Positions 14,339-25,483 of a DNA stretch of 44,398 nucleotides are shown piece after piece. The notes beneath the pieces are model-generated. The model ran no database searches and had not been told where the DNA came from. It saw only the letters and a program-made list of their open reading frames with translations. The stretch covers positions 1-44,398 of the forward strand of contig JAGCYV010000048.1 of NCBI GenBank assembly GCA_017960605.1. The letters run 5' to 3'. Made by a program: the position numbers and the translations under genes. This DNA comes from Bacteroidales bacterium (GTDB taxonomy: Bacteria > Bacteroidota > Bacteroidia > Bacteroidales > P3). Every line of letters starts with the position of its first letter. Position 1 is the stretch's first letter.

Positions 14339-14944
14339 TTACTTGTCTTTCCGTGTTGTGTCGGCGGGGGCAGGCGGGCGCTTGGTGTCGAGGATGCGGC
14401 CGTAGATAAGCAGTTCGTTCTTGAAGGTACTGCCGAGCGGATGGGGTTTCAAACCTGGATGACAGAGCATAGTGCCTCTTGCACACCCGCTACCGTCATT
14501 TGATGCCTCATAGCGTGACAGGAATTCGTCATTGGGAGATGTAATTAACAGTTCTCCCAGCAGGTGCTTTTGGGCCTGCACATCGACCGTCTGCAAGTTG
14601 CGGAAGGTGAAGCTATCGGTGATGACAGCGATATAGAGGGCGGCGTTGTCGTTCAGCACCAGGTCGGCCCGATAGACCTGCTGCCCTTTGAGGGTGGCGC
14701 TGAGGGTGTAGGCCCCTGCCGGCAGACGGCCCGAGACGAAGTAACCCTCCTTGTCGCAGCGCACGGTGGCGGCGGTGTCGGTCGTACGGATGAAATGCAG
14801 GAGGCAGTAGGGCTGCGGCTCCTGGGTCAAGTGGTCCACCACCACACCCATCACTATCACGCTGTCGGTCGCTACAGGCTCCTGCGCACTGAGACGGCCA
14901 AAGCATATCATAAGCATCAGGCAGAGGAGGCTATTTCTTTTCAT
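14339..14944 (-). CDS. Secreted carboxypeptidase-regulatory-like protein
   Basis: 201 aa. The signal peptide ends RLSAQ. Residues about 30-115 form a single beta-sandwich of the carboxypeptidase-regulatory-like type (VMGVVVDHLTQEPQPYCLLHF, GYFVSGRLPAGAYTLSATLKGQ), usually found at the N-terminus of TonB-linked outer-membrane proteins but here without a barrel. The C-terminal 80 residues carry two Cys and end in a basic Pro-rich tail (RPPAPADTTRKDK). The start overlaps the 3' end of the upstream gene by 14 nt, so the two are coupled. Exact role unknown. Confidence 0.75.
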   Translation of the reverse strand: MKRNSLLCLMLMICFGRLSAQEPVATDSVIVMGVVVDHLTQEPQPYCLLHFIRTTDTAATVRCDKEGYFVSGRLPAGAYTLSATLKGQQVYRADLVLNDNAALYIAVITDSFTFRNLQTVDVQAQKHLLGELLITSPNDEFLSRYEASNDGSGCARGTMLCHPGLKPHPLGSTFKNELLIYGRILDTKRPPAPADTTRKDK

Positions 14945-16211
14945 GACTCATCATTTTTTCTTGCAGCAACCGTAACGGCAGGGTGTCGATGGGAGTGCTG
15001 TTGTAGTGTTTCCAGTAGTCGCCGCTGTAGTCGCTCTCGCCGAAGGCTCCCGCCAGTGACTGCCGGCGCACTGCGATGGTATCGGATGGAATGATGTTGT
15101 CGGAAAGGGAGAAGTCGGTCAGCGTCCATTCAATGCATTGCCGCCACCGTTGCTCGGGGATGTCGGAACGTCGCGAAGTGAGCCGGTGGAGGCGGTTGCT
15201 GTAGTAGTGCGAGAGCGTGTATTTTCCTTCGCGCACGTCGTAGGTCCAAGCAGCGCTGTCGGCATCGATATGGAGCTTGTTGTAGTGCACACCCACCCAT
15301 GGCTCCAGCGGAGCCTCCATACTGAGGGGAAGCATAACCGATGTGATGCGTACGATGGCCAGATCGCATTTGCGGATGACATATTCATAGCGCATCGTGG
15401 AGGCCCGGTATCGTCCGATACCGCTGGCGCGAACCAGATAGAAGATTTCCCCGTTGTCCAAGAATTCCTGCACCGGCTCGAAGTAATGAAGCCTGTAGGC
15501 TGTGGGAAAAGTGGCGTTGGGGGTCTCCAGCAGGTCAAAGAACGCCTCGTTGTCGTAGAAAGCCAGCAGCTCATCCACAGCCTCCCAGTTGTTCACCAAC
15601 CGCTCCACCAGTTTGCGGTCATATACTAGCAACCTGTGGCGCAAGATGGACTTGTAGTTGGTGGTCATCTCGCGGGCGTTGGGGTCGAAGCGATAGAAGC
15701 GCTTGCTGTCGTTGCGAGCATACCCACGTCGTATGATGTTCATCACCGCCTCGTCGAATACGTAGAGTTCGTCATCGACGGCCCTCCAGTCGCGGTAGAA
15801 GAAGGTGTTGCGGGCTGTCCTACGGTGATAGTTCTTCGGTATCTTGCCAATGGCAGTTTTCAGCAGGTGGTTTCCTTCGCGGAAACTCTCCACCTTCACC
15901 TCGCGCAACTCCACCTCCAACACCTTCAGCCTCACCTGGCTGTGTCGGCGCAACGTGGCCAACGGCAGACGCACACTCTCGAATCCCATCGAGCGCACGA
16001 GCACGGTGTCGTCCTCGTGGCCGACAGGTACCTTCAGCGTGTATTCTCCCCCGTCGTTGCACGACACGCCGATCGAGGTGCCCTCCAGCTGCAACGTGGC
16101 GTACGGCACTCCCTGTCCACCCGAGGTCACGCGCCCCTTGATAGCCACCACCTCCCCCTGTGCCCACAGCAGCATCGGGAAAAGCATCATTATGAACACT
16201 ATACGACGCAT
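14931..16211 (-). CDS. Carboxypeptidase-regulatory-like domain protein
   Basis: 426 aa. The signal peptide ends LLWAQ. Residues about 22-105 form a carboxypeptidase-regulatory-like beta-sandwich (IKGRVTSGGQGVPYATLQLEG). A family-like region follows, starting NHLLKTAIGKIPKNYHRR and LYVFDEAVMNI, common in uncharacterised Bacteroidota periplasmic or outer-membrane proteins. The alternative start at 16235 is a TTG lying inside the -7 box, so ATG 16211 is used. It probably works with the overlapping downstream protein. Confidence 0.8.
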   Translation of the reverse strand: MRRIVFIMMLFPMLLWAQGEVVAIKGRVTSGGQGVPYATLQLEGTSIGVSCNDGGEYTLKVPVGHEDDTVLVRSMGFESVRLPLATLRRHSQVRLKVLEVELREVKVESFREGNHLLKTAIGKIPKNYHRRTARNTFFYRDWRAVDDELYVFDEAVMNIIRRGYARNDSKRFYRFDPNAREMTTNYKSILRHRLLVYDRKLVERLVNNWEAVDELLAFYDNEAFFDLLETPNATFPTAYRLHYFEPVQEFLDNGEIFYLVRASGIGRYRASTMRYEYVIRKCDLAIVRITSVMLPLSMEAPLEPWVGVHYNKLHIDADSAAWTYDVREGKYTLSHYYSNRLHRLTSRRSDIPEQRWRQCIEWTLTDFSLSDNIIPSDTIAVRRQSLAGAFGESDYSGDYWKHYNSTPIDTLPLRLLQEKMMSHEKK

Positions 16212-16274: not shown

Positions 16275-16335
16275 CTTCCCTTAACCTTATAGAACCCTTA
16301 TAGAAGTCTTATAATGACTATATACACCCTGTATA
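16275..16335. repeat. 11-bp-period array (CTTATA core), five to six units
   Basis: CTTATA occurs at 16286, 16297 and 16308. In-register degenerate copies lie at 16275 (CTTCCC), 16319 (TATATA) and 16330 (TGTATA). The distal units overlap the last codons and the stop of the lipoprotein gene. A 9-bp perfect inverted repeat, ATGACTATA (16314-16322) / TATAGTCAT (16332-16340), spans that stop codon. Confidence 0.7.
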
Positions 16336-16830
16336 GTCATCGGGGTGTCCCTGCCTCCATTGAGCCTTGAAAGCAGGAAGGCGGCTGAAGGTGTAGAAGT
16401 ACCATGCACCGTCCGGTTCGAACTCTCCCTGATACCAGGAACGGGTCACCAGTGTGTCGCCATCCAGTCGCTCAATGCGAAGACCTTCGACCACGCCGTT
16501 GTCCTGCACAAAAGTGATGGAATCGCCCTCTATCGACCAGGTAGAGTGATTGACAATCGAGTCGTAATGCACCCCGTCGTTATAGACTAACGTCTGTATC
16601 CACTCATGCCCCTGCGTGAATTCCCAGACGGTACTGCGGTACCACGGTGTTGCCCTTTCGTCGGTCTTCTCCAAATTCCACCGGCCCACAATCATTTCGG
16701 CACAGGTGGGTTGCACCTGGGGTGATTCCCGCACCGTTGTGGCGGGTTCCACATTCTCTTTACCGCACGAAAGGGCGGCCACAAAAGCTGCCGACAAAAG
16801 CAGCAGCATCGCTAATCTGTTTGTTTTCAT
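16318..16830 (-). CDS. Lipocalin-like lipoprotein, partner of sigma-TM cassette A
   Basis: 170 aa. Lipoprotein signal peptide ends AALSC (Cys22). The body is beta-rich and begins IVGRWNLEKTDE, the GxW-type start of lipocalin-like domains; several strands and the terminal YFYTFSRLPAF follow. It is a clear paralog of the 20240-20719 product: shared GRW-L, PW, EF, the HSTWS/YHGTWS element with the following GDSITFV/DDSVSIV, and the C-terminal RLP. It starts 30 nt downstream of the sigma-TM gene, so the two form a cassette that also occurs at 20240-23185. Ligand and partner unknown. A sensor role for the tethered sigma protein is an inference from position only. Confidence 0.8.
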   Translation of the reverse strand: MKTNRLAMLLLLSAAFVAALSCGKENVEPATTVRESPQVQPTCAEMIVGRWNLEKTDERATPWYRSTVWEFTQGHEWIQTLVYNDGVHYDSIVNHSTWSIEGDSITFVQDNGVVEGLRIERLDGDTLVTRSWYQGEFEPDGAWYFYTFSRLPAFKAQWRQGHPDDYTGCI

Positions 16831-16860: not shown

Positions 16861-17832
16861 CTACAGATGGATGTCGAACAGCAGCGTGTCGCCTATTTGC
16901 AGCACGTAGTCGTAACGGTCCATGAAGAAACCGTCGTTGGGGAAGAGCTGGAAGAAGCAGACTCCGTGGCACTTCTGCGATGCCAGAAGTATGCCGCTCC
17001 GGCTGCGGAGCGTCACCCGTTCTCCCCGCAGACCGCTGACCGTGACCGCGTTGCCCACCACGCTGACGTTGATGTGTTGCCGCAACGCAGGCAGGGGTGG
17101 GATGGAAAAGGTATCCACCTCCTGCATCGGAGCCATTTTCCGCGGTATAGGATAGCAAATCCGTACATGCTGTTCCTGCACCGTGTCAACCATTTCCGGC
17201 ATCTCCTCACACTCTTTCACCACAGGTTTTGTCACTTCCGTCGGCTCCTCCTGTACAGGCTCTTCCTGAAGTTTGGAGCCGATGACCGCCTTTCGCCACT
17301 GAGGAACCACGGCAATGGCGAGCCCCGAGGTCAGTACCAACAACAGCACAAACAGCAGCACACGGCGTGCTTTCTGCACGGCACGGTGCATGCGCTGATA
17401 CACCACGTCGCGTGTCAATCCCATCAGCTGTGCAATCTCATCAGCACGGTAGCCTTCCAGCTGCAACTGTACCATCCTCCGCTCATCGGGGTTGAGGGAG
17501 GCCAACAGCTCCTCCATTTCCTCACCGAAGGGATTGTCCGGTACCTCCGACATTGTATCAGCTATTTGTGCCGTCAGCGGAAGCATCGGCGGCCGTCTCC
17601 TACGGTTCAGCAAGTCCAGCGTGCTACGCGTCTGCCAGCGTACCCAGGCACGTTCTTCGCGCAGTGTGCTCCCTGGCCGCAGGTTGTCGTAGTGCAGCCA
17701 CAGCGACAGACACACCTCCTGCACCAAGTCACGACAGCGCTCATTGTCGCCCCGTGACCGCAGCCAGCACATCCGCCACACCATTGGGCGGTGGCGACTC
17801 AGCATCTCCGTATATGCATCTCGGCGATCCAT
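16861..17832 (-). CDS. ECF-type sigma factor fused to a transmembrane helix and extracytoplasmic domain
   Basis: 323 aa. Residues 1-80 carry sigma region 2 (RCRDLVQEVCLSLW, then REERAWVRWQTRSTLDLLNRRRR). Residues 108-157 carry region 4 with its helix-turn-helix (LNPDERRMVQLQLEGYRADEIAQ followed by VVYQRMHRAVQKAR). A hydrophobic helix (158-176) follows region 4 directly, then a Pro/Glu-rich linker (186-245) and a beta-rich C-terminal domain (254-323: NVSVVGNAVTVSG, then YVLQIGD). That last domain resembles the T9SS type-A sorting domain of the paralog at 20738-23185. Predicted topology: sigma domains inside, C-terminus in the periplasm. No FecR-type anti-sigma gene is adjacent. ATG 17832 lies 3 nt after a TATATTGG box; a consensus -7 box lies further up at 17880-17888. 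Confidence 0.85.
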   Translation of the reverse strand: MDRRDAYTEMLSRHRPMVWRMCWLRSRGDNERCRDLVQEVCLSLWLHYDNLRPGSTLREERAWVRWQTRSTLDLLNRRRRPPMLPLTAQIADTMSEVPDNPFGEEMEELLASLNPDERRMVQLQLEGYRADEIAQLMGLTRDVVYQRMHRAVQKARRVLLFVLLLVLTSGLAIAVVPQWRKAVIGSKLQEEPVQEEPTEVTKPVVKECEEMPEMVDTVQEQHVRICYPIPRKMAPMQEVDTFSIPPLPALRQHINVSVVGNAVTVSGLRGERVTLRSRSGILLASQKCHGVCFFQLFPNDGFFMDRYDYVLQIGDTLLFDIHL

Positions 17833-17835
17833 CTA

Positions 17836-17872
17836 CCAATATAATACACCTCCGATGCCCAAAATCTGACAT
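17836..17872 (-). promoter_or_regulatory. ATGTCA-N23-TATATT element upstream of sigma-TM gene A
   Basis: On the minus strand ATGTCA (17872-17867) is followed after exactly 23 bp by TATATT (17843-17838, within TATATTGG), and the ATG comes 3 nt after that box. The same two half-elements with the same spacing precede the LRR gene (20145) and the second sigma gene (23185). It may be a promoter that starts a nearly leaderless mRNA, or an operator within a longer leader made from the -7 box at 17880-17888. Confidence 0.6.
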
Positions 17873-18073: not shown

Positions 18074-18128
18074 TTTCTTAGGGAGAACTTAAGGTGAACT
18101 TAAGGTAAACTTAAGGTAAGCTTGTGGA
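18074..18128. repeat. 11-bp-period array (CTTAAGG core), five units
   Basis: Two identical units GAACTTAAGGT (18085-18095, 18096-18106) are followed by AAACTTAAGGT (18107-18117). Degenerate units flank them on both sides: CTTAGGG in register at 18077, and AAGCTTGTGGA at 18118-18128. Each core contains the palindrome CTTAAG. Confidence 0.8.
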
Positions 18129-18159
18129 GAGAAGGCACAGGAGGGGTGGATGAGGGGAG

Positions 18160-18310
18160 CAGGTGAACAGGTGAATTCTATTTGCATAAGGAGATGGAGG
18201 AGATTGTTTTTTATAATAAAGAAAATTATGCACTTATTTTTTAATTAATATTAAGGGCACGCCCCCCACCCCAAGAGACATAGGAATTCACCTGTTAACT
18301 TGTTCACCTG
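18160..18310. repeat. Imperfect long inverted repeat around an AT-rich core
   Basis: Left arm CAGGTGAACAGGTGAATTC (18160-18178). The right arm, 18284-18310, is its reverse complement with about 8 extra bases between the two GGTGAA-type elements. The 105-bp core contains A/T tracts and a C-rich block. It could be a folded RNA, a small non-autonomous element, or a protein-binding repeat. No flanking target duplication was recognised. Confidence 0.5.
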
Positions 18311-18330
18311 AAAAATAAAATTAGTGGGAA

Positions 18331-20145
18331 TCAACGAATTACCATTACTTTGCGGGCAGGGTGGTCACCAGTTTTCACCAGATAGACACCGGCGGGGAGT
18401 GCTTGATTGCTTGATTGTTTGAATGACTGAGTAAGGCGTCCTATCATGTCATAGACGCGCACCTCGTCGGTAGCGCCCTCGACGATGATGCGGCCGTTCT
18501 CCACGCTAACCACCAGCCCCTGGCTACCGACCACTTCCATTCCCAGGTTGCAGTCCTCAACATAACGGTCAGCGAATTCTTGCCAATAGCTGTCGGCCAG
18601 CCAGGCGTCGAAATTGCCACAAATGGCGATGGTATCTATTTGACCTATCATATAGAGTGGGCCGTCACCCTTGATGGCAGGGGGCAAGCCACCGGTGAAG
18701 CGTATCTTTTGGAGGTTGGCGCTCTCGAAAACAGCGGTGCCCAGGGTGTCTATCTGTCCGTGGAAGGTAACCGAGCGCAGATTGTTGGTACATGCACCGA
18801 AAGCACAATCGCCGACCTTCCTCAGCGACGCCGGGAGGTCAAGATTCGTAATATGAGTTGAGCTTAATTGCGACAAAGCCCAGAAAGCATAGTCTCCAAT
18901 CTCTTCAACGTCGTTGTTCCAGGTGATGGAGCTGAGTCTAATACACGAATTGAAGGCCTCTTTGGGGATGATGTGCAGCGAGTCGGGGATGACGATAGAG
19001 GTCAACGCATAACAGTGCTCAAACGCACCCTGTCCCATCGAGAGCAGCGTCTGCGGCATGGTGACGCTGGTCAGCCGGTCGTTCTCCGAGAAAGCTTTTC
19101 GGCCTATCGACTTCATGTGTGCCGGCAAAGTGATGGTGGTAATTTGGCAGCCGTTGAAGCAGTTTTCGGTGATGTCGGTCACAGTCGATGGGATGTCGAT
19201 ATTCCGCAGCCAAGTATTGTTCTCGAAGCCGCCCAAGACCTTCACGTTTGGGTTCAGGATCACGGTGGTACCCGACTTGTGGCACGAAACCAGCGTGTCG
19301 TATCCTGCGCTATATACCATCAGACCATCCATAACATAATGGCTGTTGCCGTTGGCGATACTTAAGTTGTTCATCTGCGGACAGTAGGAGAAGGGGCAGA
19401 CACCTATATGTGTCACCGTCGAGGGGACGACAATACCATCGACCGTCGCGCAACAGTTGAATGCGAAGTCGCCGATGGAAACCACTCCTTCGGGCAGTGT
19501 GACCGAAGTGATGTAGCTGCAGAAGCCAAAAGCCATCTTGTCAAGATGCTGCACGAATTGTGGCACCGCGACGGCTCCCGTCTCCCCGCTAGGCACAATG
19601 CAGAGTGTCAGGCTGTCCTTGCTGTAGAGCCATCCGTCGATGGAACGGAAGTGTGGATTGGCCTCATCCACCGTGATACTCATCAGGTTCCTTGCCCAGA
19701 AAGTACACTCGCCATACCCCTCGAAGCAGGCTGGCAGGTGCAGAGACGAGATGCTGGAATAGAGGAAGGCGTGGTCGTCAATGCGGTGTAGCGAGTCAGG
19801 CAATTGCAGCGTCGTGAAAGTGCAGTTATAGAAACAATGCGACCCGATGCTGCGAATGGTTGGCGGAAGAGTCAGGCTAGTCATGGTGGTGCAACTCTCG
19901 AAAGCCGACTCGGCCAATGCCGTCACCGTGTAGGTGATGCCGCCATCTTCTACCGTCTGTGGAATGACGATAGAGCCGCTGTAGGGAGTGTTGTGTAAAT
20001 AATAGTTCGACAACACTTCGACGGTCTGCTCAGATGTGATGCCATAGACGATTCCGCCCGATTCGAAGTATTGGGCTGAAGCTATGAATGGTAGGCATGC
20101 TACCACCAGAAGTGTGATGAGGGATTTGATGATGTAATGTTTCAT
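18331..20145 (-). CDS. BspA-like leucine-rich-repeat surface protein with T9SS-like tail
   Basis: 604 aa. The signal peptide ends FIASAQ (residue 25). Residues about 45-530 are LRR_5/BspA-type repeats (Treponema-type), with units such as LTLPPTIRSIGSHCFYNC, VTLPEGVVSIGDFAFNCC and VTMPQTLLSMGQGAFEHC. Residues about 545-604 resemble a short type-A T9SS sorting domain (VENGRIIVEGATDEVRVYDMIGRL, then LPAGVYLVKTG and KVMVIR). Relatives mediate adhesion or surface binding; the ligand here is unknown. Its promoter carries the same ATGTCA-N23-TATATT element as the two sigma-TM genes that flank it, suggesting joint control. Confidence 0.88.
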   Translation of the reverse strand: MKHYIIKSLITLLVVACLPFIASAQYFESGGIVYGITSEQTVEVLSNYYLHNTPYSGSIVIPQTVEDGGITYTVTALAESAFESCTTMTSLTLPPTIRSIGSHCFYNCTFTTLQLPDSLHRIDDHAFLYSSISSLHLPACFEGYGECTFWARNLMSITVDEANPHFRSIDGWLYSKDSLTLCIVPSGETGAVAVPQFVQHLDKMAFGFCSYITSVTLPEGVVSIGDFAFNCCATVDGIVVPSTVTHIGVCPFSYCPQMNNLSIANGNSHYVMDGLMVYSAGYDTLVSCHKSGTTVILNPNVKVLGGFENNTWLRNIDIPSTVTDITENCFNGCQITTITLPAHMKSIGRKAFSENDRLTSVTMPQTLLSMGQGAFEHCYALTSIVIPDSLHIIPKEAFNSCIRLSSITWNNDVEEIGDYAFWALSQLSSTHITNLDLPASLRKVGDCAFGACTNNLRSVTFHGQIDTLGTAVFESANLQKIRFTGGLPPAIKGDGPLYMIGQIDTIAICGNFDAWLADSYWQEFADRYVEDCNLGMEVVGSQGLVVSVENGRIIVEGATDEVRVYDMIGRLTQSFKQSSNQALPAGVYLVKTGDHPARKVMVIR

Positions 20146-20187
20146 TGTTTGTATGTGATTTGGTTGTTAAACATTTCGGCTCTCCTA

Positions 20188-20224
20188 CAAATATAACACA
20201 TCCCTAATTCCCCCAAAATGACAT
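20188..20224 (-). promoter_or_regulatory. ATGTCA-N23-TATATTTG promoter element of the LRR gene
   Basis: On the minus strand ATGTCA (20224-20219) is followed after 23 bp by TATATTTG (20195-20188), here a full TAnnTTTG -7 box. The ATG at 20145 lies about 40 nt downstream. It shares spacing and sequence with the upstream regions of both sigma-TM genes. Confidence 0.65.
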
Positions 20225-20239
20225 TGGGAGTAAACCTTT

Positions 20240-20719
20240 CTATGGGAGACGCTGGTAGGTGTCATAATAATAGCCTGCAGTGATGTAAGGAGGAGCCTCA
20301 TCGAACCAATAACGGCGCTGAAGCGTGGTGCTGTCGAGACTCACGATGACAAAGCCATCAAGGGAACCGTCATCCAAAACGATACTCACCGAGTCGTCGC
20401 CCACAAAGGACCATGTCCCATGGTAGGCCGAAGTGTCCTCCAACTCGGTGCCATGATAAATCATAGAATCTATAAACCCATACGTGGCGGAGAATTCCAT
20501 CGTGCAGGGATAATAGTCGAACCATGGATGGTCTCCCACCATCGTCAACTTCCATCGCCCGATGAGCAATCCTTCGTAGGGCGACCCCGACGGTTCCACC
20601 ACCGGACTTTGAGGCGTGGGTGTTTCATTAGGCTTGATGACCTCCTTCTCCGTGCAGGCAAAGGCGCACAGGAGGAGCATGGTGCCCAACAGGGCACCTG
20701 TAATGTTGTTCTGTTTCAT
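20240..20719 (-). CDS. Lipocalin-like lipoprotein, partner of sigma-TM cassette B
   Basis: 159 aa. Lipoprotein signal peptide ends LLCAFAC (Cys22), followed by a Pro/Thr-rich spacer (KPNETPTPQSPVVEP). The beta-rich body begins LIGRWKLTMVGDHPWF and ends YYYDTYQRLP. It is paralogous to the 16318-16830 product over the whole mature domain, with shared element order and spacing. It lies 18 nt downstream of the 815-codon sigma-TM-LRR gene, as its paralog lies 30 nt downstream of the other sigma-TM gene. The conserved pairing suggests they act together; the role is not known. Confidence 0.8.
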   Translation of the reverse strand: MKQNNITGALLGTMLLLCAFACTEKEVIKPNETPTPQSPVVEPSGSPYEGLLIGRWKLTMVGDHPWFDYYPCTMEFSATYGFIDSMIYHGTELEDTSAYHGTWSFVGDDSVSIVLDDGSLDGFVIVSLDSTTLQRRYWFDEAPPYITAGYYYDTYQRLP

Positions 20720-20737
20720 GGTATTGTGTTTAAAAGG

Positions 20738-23185
20738 TCAGAATCTCCAGCGGTAGCCTTCAATGATTTCCCTTTGCAGGCTCTTGTACTCGGTTCCGCT
20801 CACCACTATCTTCTGTGCCTTGCGGTCGCCCACCTGAACCAGATAAACCCCAGTATTGGGCAGCGTAACGCGGAATGCACCCCGGCAAGGTCCCTCTACC
20901 ACCAGCCGACCGGCAGCGTCGATGACACGCACCGTCTCATCGTCGGCACCTTCCACCGTGAGGCGGTTGCCGGTGACCGTGATGCTCACTTCGGGCATTT
21001 CCACCTCGGGCACCGCGTTACAATCTTCATTGATATTGTAGAAGTAGTTCCAGTAAGGTGCACTGCGATAGGCTCCTTCTGTATGGCAGGGGACTGTAAG
21101 CAGCAAGTGCGAATTCATGCCATCGAACGAGTTGTTACAAGCTTGAGGAGGCACCGAAGCGAGGCTGACCAAATCACTGACATTCGTACAGGAACCGAAG
21201 GCCCACGGGCCGATATAGGTCAATCCGGCAGGTAAAGAGAGCTCCGTCACATGAAACAACTCGGCAAGTGCCATCTCTCCGATATAGACCACCGACTGCG
21301 GGATATTCACCTCTTCCAACTCGGTGCAGCCGTGCAGAAGTTCGTCGCGGATGGTGTCGAGATTGTCGGGTAGGTGTATCTTTTTTAGGCGGTTGAAGAA
21401 ATTATAGCAGAATGCACGAGGAGCAATGTAGGTACAGCTGTTGGGCACGATGATGGAGTCGAGATTGTCGCAATGGGAAAAGGCATCAGAACCGATGGTG
21501 GTAACGCAATCACCAAGATTGACATTCCCCATATAGCTGTAGGCAAAGACCCCGTTACCGAGACTGCACGAGGCATCGTCAATGGTCACCGAGGAGCTGC
21601 CATCCTCCTTGAAAGCACTGCTGAAAGCATACTTGCCGATATGTTTTACCGTCGAAGGAATGACCACCGAACCCAGTTGAGAGCACCTATCAAAAGCCGA
21701 ATTGCCGATGGTGTCCAGACCCTCGGGCAGGGTAACTGTGGTTAAATTCGCAGCATTCCAAAATGCGTAGCGCCCAATGACGCGAACAGAAGAGGGTAGG
21801 AGAGCCTGCGTCACGTCGGGGCGGCAGCCGGTGACATATGTGCGCGTATTATCACTATAGAAAAGGCCCTCCTCCTCATAAGCATTCGCTGTCAATGCTC
21901 CCCACGGAGCACCCAAGGCGGTGCCGTGGTAGATGACATTCTTCACAAGACCGAAAGCTTTCGTTCCGATGGTATCTACTCCATCGGGAACCACCAACTC
22001 AATAATGTTGGTTGAAGCCAATGCCAATTTGCCGATGGTGGTCACCGTGGGCGGTATCACGACGGATTCTATTTCATTGTGACTATAAAAAGCGCTGTCG
22101 GACAATGCCGTTACTGTCCAATTGGTACCGTCGTGTTCCACTGTGGAAGGAATCACCAGCGTGTCGCTGTAGCGGATATACGACGGTGTCAGCCAAACAT
22201 ACGCGTCGCCACACACGCTGACGTGATGTAACACCGAGTCGATGATGGTGCAGAAGAGGGTGTCGCCTTGTGGGGTGACAGACTGAAAATCGTGCGCTAC
22301 CTGTGCCTGTGTGGCAGTGGACAAGGTGGCGAGAACCGTTGCAAGTGCGGCTCGTCTCAAAGATATGTTCATACTGTCGGGTATTAATGTGTCGTTGAAC
22401 AGGATGCCGGGCACATTGTGCATCACCGCCCTCACTGAACCGCCACCATTGGCCCGTGTATAGACCACCGAGCTGTCGTTACGACAGAATGTGACAGAAT
22501 AGCCGTCCATACCGTAGCCCTCATAAATCCACTCCACTACCACCTCGGGCTTTGCCTGCGAAACTTCTGTCGGCAGAATGGGTGAGGGTCTGTCCGCTGG
22601 CAGGCTGTCGATAGCGGCTGGTGTCTCTTGAGGGAAAATCAACTGGCGCCACTGCGGCACGACGGCTATTGCAATACCGGTAGCCACAATCAGCAACAGC
22701 AGAACCAGCAGCACACGGCGTGCTTTCTGCACGGCACGGTGCATGCGCTGATACACCACGTCGCGTTTCAATCCCATCAGCTGTGCAATCTCATCAGCAC
22801 GGTAGCCTTCCAACTGCAAACGCACCATCCGCTGCTCCTCAGGGCTGAACGAAGCCATTACATGTTCCACCTCCTCCTGCTCTTTGAGTGGATCGGTGGC
22901 GACAAGCGTCTCGGCAATATCTACCGTTAATGGCCTCTCGGCAACACTTTTGCTTCTATGCAGGTGGTCAAGCGTTGTTCGTGCCACCCAGCGCACCCAA
23001 GCCCGCTCTTCGCGCGGAGTCGCACCAGCACGTAATCCCCCAAACCTCAGCCACAGGGCAATACATACCTCTTGCACCAAATCGCGGCAACGTTCGTGGT
23101 CGCCCCGTGACCGCAGCCAGCACATCCGCCACACCATTGGGCGATGGTGGCGCAATAGTTCGGTGTATGCCTTATGTGCATCCAT
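20738..23185 (-). CDS. ECF-type sigma factor - transmembrane - BspA-LRR fusion protein
   Basis: 815 aa in one uninterrupted frame. Residues 1-80 sigma region 2 (RCRDLVQEVCIALW), 108-157 region 4 (EEQRMVRLQLEGYRADEIAQ, VVYQRMHRAVQKAR), 158-176 transmembrane helix, 180-271 linker. Residues 272-295 read like a second start and signal peptide (MNISLRRAALATVLATLSTA, then TQAQ). BspA-type LRR units follow (about 330-730) and a T9SS-like tail (about 745-795: GVYLVQVGDRKAQKIVV), with 20 further residues. It may be a true fusion, or two genes joined by loss of a stop, with internal initiation at ATG 22372. The N-terminal 180 residues are closely related to those of the 16861-17832 product. Confidence 0.85.
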   Translation of the reverse strand: MDAHKAYTELLRHHRPMVWRMCWLRSRGDHERCRDLVQEVCIALWLRFGGLRAGATPREERAWVRWVARTTLDHLHRSKSVAERPLTVDIAETLVATDPLKEQEEVEHVMASFSPEEQRMVRLQLEGYRADEIAQLMGLKRDVVYQRMHRAVQKARRVLLVLLLLIVATGIAIAVVPQWRQLIFPQETPAAIDSLPADRPSPILPTEVSQAKPEVVVEWIYEGYGMDGYSVTFCRNDSSVVYTRANGGGSVRAVMHNVPGILFNDTLIPDSMNISLRRAALATVLATLSTATQAQVAHDFQSVTPQGDTLFCTIIDSVLHHVSVCGDAYVWLTPSYIRYSDTLVIPSTVEHDGTNWTVTALSDSAFYSHNEIESVVIPPTVTTIGKLALASTNIIELVVPDGVDTIGTKAFGLVKNVIYHGTALGAPWGALTANAYEEEGLFYSDNTRTYVTGCRPDVTQALLPSSVRVIGRYAFWNAANLTTVTLPEGLDTIGNSAFDRCSQLGSVVIPSTVKHIGKYAFSSAFKEDGSSSVTIDDASCSLGNGVFAYSYMGNVNLGDCVTTIGSDAFSHCDNLDSIIVPNSCTYIAPRAFCYNFFNRLKKIHLPDNLDTIRDELLHGCTELEEVNIPQSVVYIGEMALAELFHVTELSLPAGLTYIGPWAFGSCTNVSDLVSLASVPPQACNNSFDGMNSHLLLTVPCHTEGAYRSAPYWNYFYNINEDCNAVPEVEMPEVSITVTGNRLTVEGADDETVRVIDAAGRLVVEGPCRGAFRVTLPNTGVYLVQVGDRKAQKIVVSGTEYKSLQREIIEGYRWRF

Positions 23186-23188
23186 ACA

Positions 23189-23225
23189 CTAATATAATAC
23201 CCACTTTTTTGACAAAATCTGACAT
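23189..23225 (-). promoter_or_regulatory. ATGTCA-N23-TATATT element upstream of the sigma-TM-LRR gene
   Basis: On the minus strand ATGTCA (23225-23220) is followed after 23 bp by TATATT (23196-23191, within TATATTAG), and the ATG comes 3 nt after the box. It matches the elements at 17836-17872 and 20188-20224. Confidence 0.6.
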
Positions 23226-23266
23226 CAGAGGCACAAAAAAACAAATAACGACCAGAATTTCGCCCT

Positions 23267-24355
23267 TTACAGGCGCTGACGGAGCTTCATGGCGGGGCGT
23301 TCGATGAGGTGATAAAGCACCAAAGTCCCCAACAAGGTGACCAACCAGAACAGGAGATAGGCAGCGACACCGTGCCGGGAGGCAAAGGCGGAGAGGTGGG
23401 TGTCTAACAGCTGCACGGCCAGGAGGTTGGTGAGGAACATGGAATAGGAGAGGAGGCTGACGGTGGTGGTGACGCCCGAGAGAGCGGGCGGTGCCTGCCG
23501 CCAGTGGTCCAACGCCGGAAGCATGAGGCTGAACGCCAACGGCCCCAGAGAGGGATAGAGCAGATTGACATAGTGTGAGCCCATCTCATATGGGATGGTG
23601 CACGCCGCCAGCAGAAGCACCCCGCCGGCCGCCAAACACCACCAACGGCAACGGTGCCAGAGGTCGGGAGCATAGCGGCAAAGACAGGCGGCCAAAACGC
23701 CGTAATAGATGCTGTCGGAGCGGGCGGCCACCGTCTTCCTGACCCATACGTCCCACCAGAAGTAATCCACCGCCTGATCGGCGACATGAATGCGGTAAAG
23801 CAACGAGGAAGCAATCACCATAAGGGCTGACAGGAGGGCGGCTTTCAGGCCCCCCCAGCGGCGGAACAGCAGTACCAACAGCGGGAAACAGAGGTAGAAC
23901 CACCACTGTACGGGCAACGACCACGACTCCCAGAAGAAATCGTAGAAGGGGGTGAAGAGGTTCTGTGTCAGCGTGGCAAAGCGCCACAAAGGCTTGGAGT
24001 CGAAGTTGCCCTCGATGACTCCCGTCGCCACCAGGGCGTAGTTGGCGGCCAAGAGCACCATGTAATTGGGCAGGATGCGCAACGCCGTGCGGAGATAGAG
24101 ACGGAAGGTGGAGCGGAGATATGCGCTACCCGCATGCTCGTCGGCGGCCCGCAATACCGTGCGTCCTATCAGGAAACCGCTCAGGACGAAGAAGATATCG
24201 ACCCCGTGGGGCAAAGGTGCCCCCACAATGAAATCGAAGGTTGTACCCGAGAGAAAATGGCGTCCGTGACCATGAACCACAAAGAAAATGGCCAACGCCC
24301 TCAGGAAATCCAACCCAAAGACTCTTGGCTTGCCGTCGGTGACAACTCCCAACAT
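23267..24355 (-). CDS. Membrane acyltransferase (acyltransferase-3 family)
   Basis: 362 aa with about ten hydrophobic segments. The N-terminus reads VFGLDFLRALAIFFVVHGHG, with the catalytic-type His in HGHGRH, then GVDIFFVLSGFLIGRT, both hallmarks of OafA/acyltransferase-3 proteins that move acyl groups (often acetyl) onto carbohydrates or lipids at the inner membrane. It starts 6 nt after the stop of the GNAT-like gene and is in line with serine palmitoyltransferase, so it may modify a sphingolipid or an associated envelope glycan; this is inferred from position. Confidence 0.88.
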   Translation of the reverse strand: MLGVVTDGKPRVFGLDFLRALAIFFVVHGHGRHFLSGTTFDFIVGAPLPHGVDIFFVLSGFLIGRTVLRAADEHAGSAYLRSTFRLYLRTALRILPNYMVLLAANYALVATGVIEGNFDSKPLWRFATLTQNLFTPFYDFFWESWSLPVQWWFYLCFPLLVLLFRRWGGLKAALLSALMVIASSLLYRIHVADQAVDYFWWDVWVRKTVAARSDSIYYGVLAACLCRYAPDLWHRCRWWCLAAGGVLLLAACTIPYEMGSHYVNLLYPSLGPLAFSLMLPALDHWRQAPPALSGVTTTVSLLSYSMFLTNLLAVQLLDTHLSAFASRHGVAAYLLFWLVTLLGTLVLYHLIERPAMKLRQRL

Positions 24356-24361
24356 AAAGGA

Positions 24362-25483
24362 TTAGAGCGGCTTGGCGAAGACGGCGCGCTGCATCAGGGG
24401 TTTGGTGTTGTACTGCGTCTCCCAGATCTTGACGGCCTCGTTGCCGATAATCTGGGGGTTGGTGTAGGCGGTATGCACACCGTGCTTGATGGCGGCTTCG
24501 TTCATGTCGCAATAGTAGATGCTGTGCACCCCGCGCTTCTGCCATTCGGGCAGCACGCCGTTGAGCAGCAGGTCGATGGTGTCGAAATGATGGAGGGCGT
24601 GCAGGATGTGATACCAGCCGAAGGGGAAGAGCTTGCCGTTGGCCTTCTTGTAAGCCTTGGTGAGATCGGGAATGGAGAGGCCGAAGCCCACCAGCTTGTC
24701 GTTCTCATCGACCACGAACTGCACGAAGTCCATATTGACAAAGGGGAAATACTCGTCGATATAGACACCGATTTCCTTCTCGCTCATGGGGACAAAGTCG
24801 TAGAGGTCCTTGAAGGAGTCGTTGATGGCGTGGAAGAACTGCCAGGCATAGGGAATCAGCTCTTTGCGGCGTTTCACCTTGACCAGTTTGAGGTGGTACT
24901 TCTCCATGATGAGCTTGTTGAGTCGGGCCACTTTGTCGGGCACGGGCTGGTTGGCCTGCATGGAGTACTGCTGCCAGCGGCATTTGATTTCGTATCCGGC
25001 GCGTTCGATGAAACGCACGTAGTATTCAGGATTGTAGAGGGTGGAGGTGTTCTGGCGGGCGTCGAAGTTATCAATAGCCCAGCACTCCTTGTCCATATCG
25101 GTGAAGCCGAAGGGGCCTTCGATCTCCGTCATCCCGTTGGCGCGGCCGTATTCCGCCACCTTGTCGAGCAGGGCAGTGAAGACGTCGTAGTCTTCGATAA
25201 AGTCGAACCAGCCGAAGCGGACGGCCTTCTTATTCCAATGCTCATTGACGGTGCGGTTGATGATGGCGGCCACGCGGCCCACCACCTTGCCGTCGCGATA
25301 GGCCAGATAGAGCTCGCGGGAGCAATGCTCCAACGAGGGGTTCTTCTTGGTGAGCAGGTTGATTTCGTCGAAATCCAGCGCCGGGATGTAGCTCGGCACC
25401 TCTTTGAACAACTTGTTGGGGAACGCGATGAACTTGCGCAGTTCGCTGCGTTTCTTTACGGTTTTAATAACAATATCAGCCAT
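24362..25483 (-). CDS. GNAT-like acyltransferase next to serine palmitoyltransferase
   Basis: 373 aa, no signal peptide. I recognise it as a Bacteroidota GNAT-like family rather than a characterised enzyme. The N-terminal half carries a GNAT-type segment (RELYLAYRDGKVVGRVAAIIN) and IEGPFGFTDMDKECWAIDNF. The C-terminal half has a second GNAT-like region (VDENDKLVGFGLSIPDL, then NEAAIKHGVHTAYTNPQI). It lies 26 nt downstream of spt in the same transcript. A role in N-acylation of the long-chain base (ceramide formation) is plausible, because bacterial ceramide synthases have been assigned to acyltransferase families of this kind, but nothing in the sequence proves the substrate. Confidence 0.75.
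   Translation of the reverse strand: MADIVIKTVKKRSELRKFIAFPNKLFKEVPSYIPALDFDEINLLTKKNPSLEHCSRELYLAYRDGKVVGRVAAIINRTVNEHWNKKAVRFGWFDFIEDYDVFTALLDKVAEYGRANGMTEIEGPFGFTDMDKECWAIDNFDARQNTSTLYNPEYYVRFIERAGYEIKCRWQQYSMQANQPVPDKVARLNKLIMEKYHLKLVKVKRRKELIPYAWQFFHAINDSFKDLYDFVPMSEKEIGVYIDEYFPFVNMDFVQFVVDENDKLVGFGLSIPDLTKAYKKANGKLFPFGWYHILHALHHFDTIDLLLNGVLPEWQKRGVHSIYYCDMNEAAIKHGVHTAYTNPQIIGNEAVKIWETQYNTKPLMQRAVFAKPL

Follow-up and report, generated by a model that had tools for sequence, protein, structure and literature searches.

A conserved fusion of an ECF sigma factor to a BspA-type ectodomain in Bacteroidales, with a candidate surface-protein regulon and a conserved internal start

How a sigma factor and a BspA-type surface protein come to share one reading frame, and what such a frame yields, is the question raised by a gene on the stretch of Bacteroidales DNA analysed here (the window, 44,398 nucleotides). 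An earlier note read the frame either as a genuine one-piece sensor, with leucine-rich repeats outside and sigma inside, or as two genes joined by loss of a stop codon, with translation still starting at an internal ATG. The gene encodes an ECF sigma factor with a membrane and predicted extracytoplasmic extension, and this arrangement is real and conserved. For the fuller reading, in which the ECF sigma factor, tethered to the membrane and equipped with an adhesin-like sensor, would drive its own gene and a surface-protein regulon while the internal ATG likely gives a secreted adhesin, we estimate a probability of about two in three. The promoter-like motif with its gene set, the tandem paralogue sigma2 and the exchange of sigma modules between ectodomains, all described below, go beyond what the earlier note had reported.

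Table 1. Features of the fusion gene and its neighbours, in window coordinates.
Feature	Position	Strand	Remark
Fusion gene, sigma-TM-X-(internal signal peptide)-BspA LRR-CTD-like	20738..23185	-	815 aa
ECF sigma module, regions 2 and 4, residues 1-158	22712..23185	-	
Membrane helix, residues ~158-180	22646..22714	-	conserved AxAVVPQWR motif at helix end
Linker domain X, residues 211-271	22373..22555	-	also part of stand-alone membrane proteins in relatives
Internal ATG (22372-22370) and signal-peptide-like segment, residues 272-294, then Gln295	22304..22372	-	
BspA N-terminal segment and LRR_5 repeats, residues 295-725	21011..22303	-	
CTD-like C-terminal domain, residues 726-795	20801..21010	-	TIGR04183 and DUF6383 below cut-off
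C-terminal extension, 20 residues	20741..20800	-	not found in 11 closed relatives
Motif TGTCAGATT-N15-GTATTATA of fusion gene	23193..23224	-	7 bases to start codon, nearly leaderless spacing
Lipocalin-like lipoprotein gene	20240..20719	-	directly 3' of fusion gene
Motif of BspA2, diverged -35-like box	20192..20223	-	upstream of BspA2
BspA2, free BspA protein with signal peptide and CTD-like end	18331..20145	-	604 aa
Motif of sigma2	17840..17871	-	7 bases to start codon
sigma2, fusion paralogue, sigma-TM-CTD-like without LRR	16861..17832	-	323 aa
Second lipocalin-like lipoprotein	16318..16830	-	
CarboxypepD_reg-like exported protein	14931..16211	-	family preceded by motif in relatives
Shorter CarboxypepD_reg-like exported protein	14339..14944	-	Pfam below cut-off; family preceded by motif in relatives

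The frame is free of stops across all its codons. Its N-terminal part is recognized by the TIGR02937 sigma70-ECF model (56.7 bits; cut-off 42.9) and by the Pfam models Sigma70_r2, over residues 10–78 (24.9 bits; cut-off 24), and Sigma70_r4_2, over residues 104–154 (28.2 bits; cut-off 25.7). Region 4 ends at residue 154 and leads straight into the single strongly hydrophobic helix of the protein, which begins near residue 158 (hydropathy 3.2 over 19 residues); no Pfam match to an anti-sigma or zinc-finger domain was found between sigma and helix. Many positive charges sit in the stretch leading up to the helix, and proline and acidic residues are frequent in the linker that follows it. The stretch after Met272 is less hydrophobic (1.3 over 15 residues) and is closer to a signal peptide than to a membrane anchor. 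Pfam LRR_5 exceeds its curated cut-off, with five stretches matched (E 2.7e-71). The sigma regions, helix, linker, signal-peptide-like segment and repeats that the earlier note had described are thus upheld, both by models above cut-off and by the same architecture in 11 other genomes. As to the T9SS-like tail of that note, the end of the protein resembles such a tail, but TIGR04183 (Por_Secre_tail) scores 16.5 bits against a cut-off of 23. A DUF6383 match to residues 727–795 also lies below its Pfam cut-off, and the free BspA2 protein reaches 20.9 bits with TIGR04183, again below 23.

A search of 120 genomes of the genus, the window's own included, was followed by reading of the matched loci. 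Closed one-frame fusions are present in 11 other genomes, with 46–61% identity to the window's protein; in all 11 the internal start and signal peptide are kept and domain X runs into the LRR part. One of these genomes has an additional, second fusion gene that runs off its contig, and in two further genomes the contig ends inside the signal peptide. In the GTDB contig scan the relatives span RUG, RGIG, UBA and metaWRAP assemblies; they are metagenome-assembled genomes (MAGs) of uncultured Bacteroidales or Bacteroidetes, several of them labelled as rumen, reticulum or other ruminant-gut samples. The one-piece option of the earlier note gains from this conservation across several assembly projects, and also from the existence of sigma-TM-short-LRR-tail proteins that lack an internal signal peptide. 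The 20 residues beyond the usual end of the sorting domain, to which the note had drawn attention, are indeed there, following 'KIVV', and the 11 closed relatives end within 1–2 residues of that point. This extension is the only part peculiar to the window's fusion. Longer-ended short relatives had suggested that it belongs to the sigma side, an idea set aside because the 11 closed fusions end near residue 795.

Relatives do not always encode two genes with a stop between them, and the halves occur both joined and apart. Besides the 11 fused cases, one relative (G100, loci L103/L140) carries the sigma-X and BspA parts in two frames that meet in an ATGA stop/start overlap, in a single MAG where an error is possible, and another (G125) has a separate sigma gene with TM-X-signal-peptide-LRR as a protein of its own. 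Separate membrane proteins with the same X and LRR parts adjoin separate sigma genes in relatives; of two that were scanned, one passes the LRR_5 cut-off and the other falls short of it. Other relatives carry sigma-TM-tail proteins of about 320–390 aa, or the sigma-TM-short-LRR-tail proteins of 492 aa, both without an internal signal peptide. The 492-aa proteins and the X-LRR membrane proteins beside sigma genes support the idea that the LRR part serves as a sensor. Residues 272–795 of the fusion match free BspA proteins. At E 1e-20 the BspA N-terminal segment of the fusion is found in this genus only, in 24 genomes (190 genomes of the family, up to 24 candidates scored per genome). The sigma-TM profile, run on a sample of 393 genomes of the order, attains E<=1e-50 in the window's own genome only (up to 8 candidates scored per genome).

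Does the internal start have a function of its own? Met272 is kept in 14 of 15 genes, and the fifteenth has its methionine one codon away; Ala294 and Gln295 are invariant in all 13 genes that reach that far. By eye and hydropathy, residues 272–295 fit a signal peptidase I substrate, with a positive n-region, a hydrophobic h-region and a small residue followed by glutamine, and glutamine after the signal-peptidase site is given as the rule in Bacteroidetes (PMC5837995). In two genomes, free BspA paralogues that lie 3' of the fusion start exactly at the codon equivalent to Met272, and the split relative G100 retains the signal peptide. The 18 nucleotides before the internal ATG lie at the 92nd–100th percentile of A+T within their own gene in 13 of 13 cases, and in 7 of the 13 the excess goes beyond amino-acid needs (p<0.05). 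In 12 of 13 genes the RNA around the internal ATG surpasses at least 95% of positions in openness, and 158 of 160 other in-frame methionine codons of the 13 genes (those within three residues excluded) are less open.

The most serious competing account, which we nonetheless consider rather unlikely, is that the full-length tethered sensor is the sole product and that the signal-peptide-like segment is an inert BspA leftover, retained by accident or for use as a hydrophobic linker. A frame without a stop makes the full-length protein inevitable whenever sigma is made, and sigma-LRR fusions without a signal peptide do occur. The RNA openness at the internal ATG is not significant beyond amino-acid needs in the 13 genes (median p 0.33), so that amino acids alone explain most of it, and fourfold sites near the ATG display no clear dip in synonymous change. 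Against this account, Met272, Ala294 and Gln295 are kept despite only 41–56% identity to the window's protein over the N-terminal 330 residues; within clades linker X has diverged more than the segment (0.13–0.21 versus 0.08–0.11 amino-acid differences); and both the paralogues that start at the Met272 codon and the split variant with its signal peptide speak for a working segment. Given its conserved internal start, the frame may also make a secreted adhesin, for which we put the chances at close to even. The one-piece sensor and the internal start need not exclude each other.

The lipocalin-like lipoprotein gene next to the fusion is probably co-transcribed with it. No anti-sigma gene is recognizable among the seven neighbours scanned. 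Several relatives have a comparable locus, lying between deoC-kbl-GNAT-like genes and an SDR-like gene, names that we assign presumptively from how the sequences appear. In the closest sister found (G050), whose DNA is 91% and 83% identical on the two flanks, a block of about 6.2 kb (window ~18120–24368) that holds the fusion, the lipoprotein, BspA2 and an acyltransferase is missing; the fusion gene is thus dispensable there.

Most sigma genes of the family are immediately preceded by TGTCAGATT-N15-GTATTATA, a promoter-like motif, or by a near match to it, several short forms being without it. Since the motif was derived from sigma genes, its presence there is partly by construction; its presence before three other gene families and its rarity genome-wide are not. 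The window holds 3 matches against a chance mean of 0.03. A relaxed form finds 3 matches in the whole 1.91-Mb genome, all at this locus (fusion, BspA2 and sigma2), with 0 in a reversed control; two positions were loosened to admit the BspA2 site, which is therefore not independent, and both sigma sites fit the strict motif. In the window no motif of its own was found for the CarboxypepD_reg-like gene at 14931..16211. Across the genus the strict motif occurs 79 times, in 39 of 120 genomes, with 0 in the reversed control, and the spacer is 15 nt in 78 of the 79 matches when 13–17 is allowed. Among 393 genomes sampled from the order, 3 matches fall outside the window's own genome, with spacers of 14 or 16 nt and none of 15. 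The motif-defined gene set is confined to one genus in the genomes sampled.

The genes that follow these sites are few in kind. Of 76 unique sites at the loci examined, 75 precede sigma, BspA, lipoprotein or CarboxypepD-type genes, and the remaining one stands at a contig end. Sigma genes account for 37 (34 of them 5–9 bases from the ATG), a pooled class, as the 'fused' label also caught sigma genes with a tail match alone. BspA genes follow 16 sites (15 at 26–91 bases from the start), CarboxypepD genes 11 (10 at 5–8 bases) and lipoprotein genes another 11, at 21–51 bases, with 4 assigned by homology and 7 by lipobox. A TAnnTTTG box, which we take to be the Bacteroidetes housekeeping -7 element, occurs within 45 nt upstream of 16 of the 37 sigma sites but of 1 of 39 others (p 1.5e-5; background 1%). 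Such a skew is expected if the regulator has a basal as well as a self-driven promoter and its targets have the self-driven one alone.

Co-occurrence is the ground for supposing that the sigma module itself reads the motif. With sigma genes taken as the 84 among the matches listed (E about 9e-50 or better), the motif is present in 37 of 58 genomes that have such a gene and in 2 of 62 that lack one; one of these two has its site in front of a sigma gene truncated at a contig end. By the same listed matches, 39 of the 79 sites lie directly 5' of a sigma gene, 17 lie within 12 kb of one and 23 lie elsewhere. It could be that another sigma factor or regulator reads the motif and that the tethered sigma is merely one of its targets, as the absence of the strict motif from 21 of the 58 sigma-bearing genomes might suggest. 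Such a regulator seems quite unlikely: 37 of the 39 motif genomes carry this sigma family among the listed matches, and in the order sample neither the sigma profile (E<=1e-50, up to 8 candidates scored per genome) nor the 15-nt-spacer motif was found outside the window's own genome. The fusion sigma factor probably controls a small set of surface-protein genes, its own included.

A working model can be drawn from these features. The sigma module would lie in the cytoplasm, joined directly to one membrane helix, and with the charge pattern on either side of the helix this should place the LRR part in the periplasm, together with the linker domain and the T9SS-tail-like domain. The outside part may sense a cue, either binding or the state of surface-protein export; the resemblance of the ectodomain to the predicted target products, BspA with a tail, suggests feedback on surface-protein export or adhesin binding. 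Upon the cue, proteolysis would probably release the sigma module, by analogy with IutY and ECF52. An M50 (site-2 type) intramembrane protease is encoded in the window's own genome and in 14 of 14 control genomes, so its presence merely permits this step; GldM/PorM of the T9SS is encoded in the own genome and in 0 of the 14 controls. The freed module would then read its promoters, driving the fusion itself, the paralogue, the free BspA adhesin and the linked lipoprotein and CarboxypepD-type genes. From the same frame, the internal ATG with its signal peptide would most likely give a separate secreted adhesin.

A separate adhesin might also arise after translation, if signal peptidase cut the full-length protein between Ala294 and Gln295 and left sigma-TM-X in the membrane. 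The invariance of the A-Q site in 13 of 13 genes agrees with such a cut, and the split variant would yield the same two parts. With sigma inside and a single helix, however, the positive end of the segment should face outward, the wrong orientation for signal peptidase I, and X, judged from the sequences, is not hydrophobic; we regard this route as improbable. Returning to translation from the internal ATG, the frame may be nested, encoding a tethered transcription factor together with a secreted adhesin that duplicates the outer part of the sensor, with one self-read promoter serving both. We hold this more specific proposal tentatively, at somewhat less than even odds. If it is true, the sensor and the surface product have one sequence in common, which allows the cell to compare the tethered copies with the exported ones.

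The history of the fusion appears to be modular. A quick tree was built from 70 sigma domains, with 18 rows (about 16 genes, two entered twice) scored as fused; two of 72 rows, truncated at locus ends and wrongly labelled, had been removed, and the split relative was grouped with its kin. The fused type does not form one clade but requires 5 changes, at least 3 of them forced by well-supported branches. A single clade of fused sigma domains, and with it a single origin of the fusion on this tree, is rejected (p-AU 2.4e-8), with the warning that the tree is quick and that two long branches meet in it, one being the fused gene of G044. The genes of G127 and G084 are 96% identical in the sigma module, 24% in X and 59% in the signal-peptide-LRR part, whereas for G127 and G076 the corresponding values are 38%, 75% and 85%. 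These contrasts indicate that sigma modules have been exchanged between related ectodomains, the junction lying close to the membrane helix. An origin of the frame through a lost ATGA overlap and one indel was also considered and is unneeded, the sigma-X/BspA overlap being found in the split relative only. Finally, the view that a chimeric assembly or a recent stop-codon loss left a broken sigma gene and an adhesin made from ATG 22372 might appeal to a MAG of 78 contigs and 78% completeness, to the halves split in one relative and to the sister without the block, but it is refuted by the 11 closed one-frame homologues from other species and several assembly projects, with X continuous with the LRR part, and by sigma and LRR models that pass their cut-offs in the window, so that a recent stop-codon loss, as in the second option of the earlier note, falls away.

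Sigma factors with membrane-bound extensions are already known, and the closest parallels differ from the fusion in several ways. In ECF52 (SCO4117 of Streptomyces coelicolor), as in the fusion, sigma, helix and extracytoplasmic domain form one protein; positive autoregulation has been suggested and proteolytic release proposed, as we propose here, and in one species a stop, perhaps a sequence error, separates the outer module (PMC5826349, PMC8999054). ECF52 is reported from Actinobacteria only; a zinc-finger separates its sigma part from the helix, and its outer part is a carbohydrate-binding module (PMC5826349, PMC8999054). The fusion, in contrast, belongs to Bacteroidales, has no zinc-finger that we could find, would place LRR and a CTD-like domain outside, and contains an internal start with a signal peptide. 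IutY of Pseudomonas putida (ECF243) likewise joins sigma to a membrane-bound part and is activated by Prc and RseP proteolysis, the model borrowed here (PMC8999054). Its membrane-bound part is an anti-sigma part in iron-starvation cell-surface signalling (PMC8999054), whereas no anti-sigma domain was found in the fusion.

Other systems share single elements with the fusion. In Porphyromonas gingivalis the T9SS-tail protein PorA is proposed to relay a surface signal, through PorXY-SigP, to an ECF sigma factor that controls T9SS genes (PMC7712824), and thus offers a precedent for tail proteins acting as signals. There the components are separate proteins and include a two-component system (PMC7712824), whereas in the fusion the tail-like domain lies within the sigma protein and the predicted targets are surface proteins. 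The ectodomain matches BspA-type LRR_5 surface proteins, from which the fusion differs in being anchored through an N-terminal sigma-TM module. Two-polypeptide endolysins offer two proteins from one frame with a shared stop codon, but these are phage enzymes (PMC9430671), while the putative pair here would be a transcription factor and a secreted protein. In the open-access literature, as judged by titles and the beginnings of abstracts, no description of a sigma-BspA fusion was found. As far as could be seen in the literature searched, what is new is the adhesin-type ectodomain, the lack of an anti-sigma domain, the conserved internal start with signal peptide and the compact motif-defined gene set.

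Among Bacteroidetes ECF sigma factors, 6% have a recognizable class I anti-sigma neighbour, compared with 32% over all phyla (PMC7406223). How those without such a neighbour are controlled is largely open, and in the fusion family the sensor appears to be built into the sigma protein. Through the compact motif the targets of this sigma factor can be put to a direct test. A single gene would supply both a regulator and its secreted twin, if the internal start is used. The exchange of sigma modules between related ectodomains provides natural material on the rewiring of surface sensing, and the predicted targets may affect the presentation of adhesins by these uncultured bacteria, several of which are labelled as coming from ruminant guts.

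The region around the fusion, the 815-residue protein that joins an ECF sigma factor to a BspA-type LRR protein, is not constant. The nearest sister species found lacks a block of ~6.2 kb, corresponding to window positions 18120-24368, which contains BspA2 (a free BspA gene), one lipoprotein gene, the fusion and an acyltransferase gene; the presence of these genes thus differs among close relatives (locus L214 of G050). In the 11 other genomes that encode the fusion in one frame, the protein terminates at the CTD-like domain, without the 20-residue extension. A Cys-x-x-x-Cys pair is frequent in this domain of sigma-TM proteins (CRGMC and CKGHC, for example; L034, L035, L037, L039), and the window's fusion retains only its first Cys.

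Features of the fused gene and of free BspA copies
Feature	Location	Remark
Free BspA copy 3' of fused gene	L120:7706-9364	Start codon is the counterpart of the internal Met
Free BspA copy 3' of fused gene	L115:2966-4427	Start codon is the counterpart of the internal Met
C-terminal extension, 20 residues	window 20741-20800	Window's protein only

The free copy of L115 is preceded by a TAnnTTTG-type box (TATCTTTG). Among sites of the promoter-like two-box motif in the loci examined, the gap to the ATG is 5-9 bases, a leaderless-like arrangement, for the majority of sigma genes and of CarboxypepD genes; in front of BspA genes and lipoprotein genes, leaders of 20-90 nt predominate.

At five loci of relatives (L042, L043, L102, L105 and L106) a stand-alone sigma gene immediately adjoins the gene for a membrane protein with the same X domain and LRR, which at L102 also has the internal signal peptide. 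These X-LRR proteins may be cryptic anti-sigma factors whose cytoplasmic N-terminus would be short.
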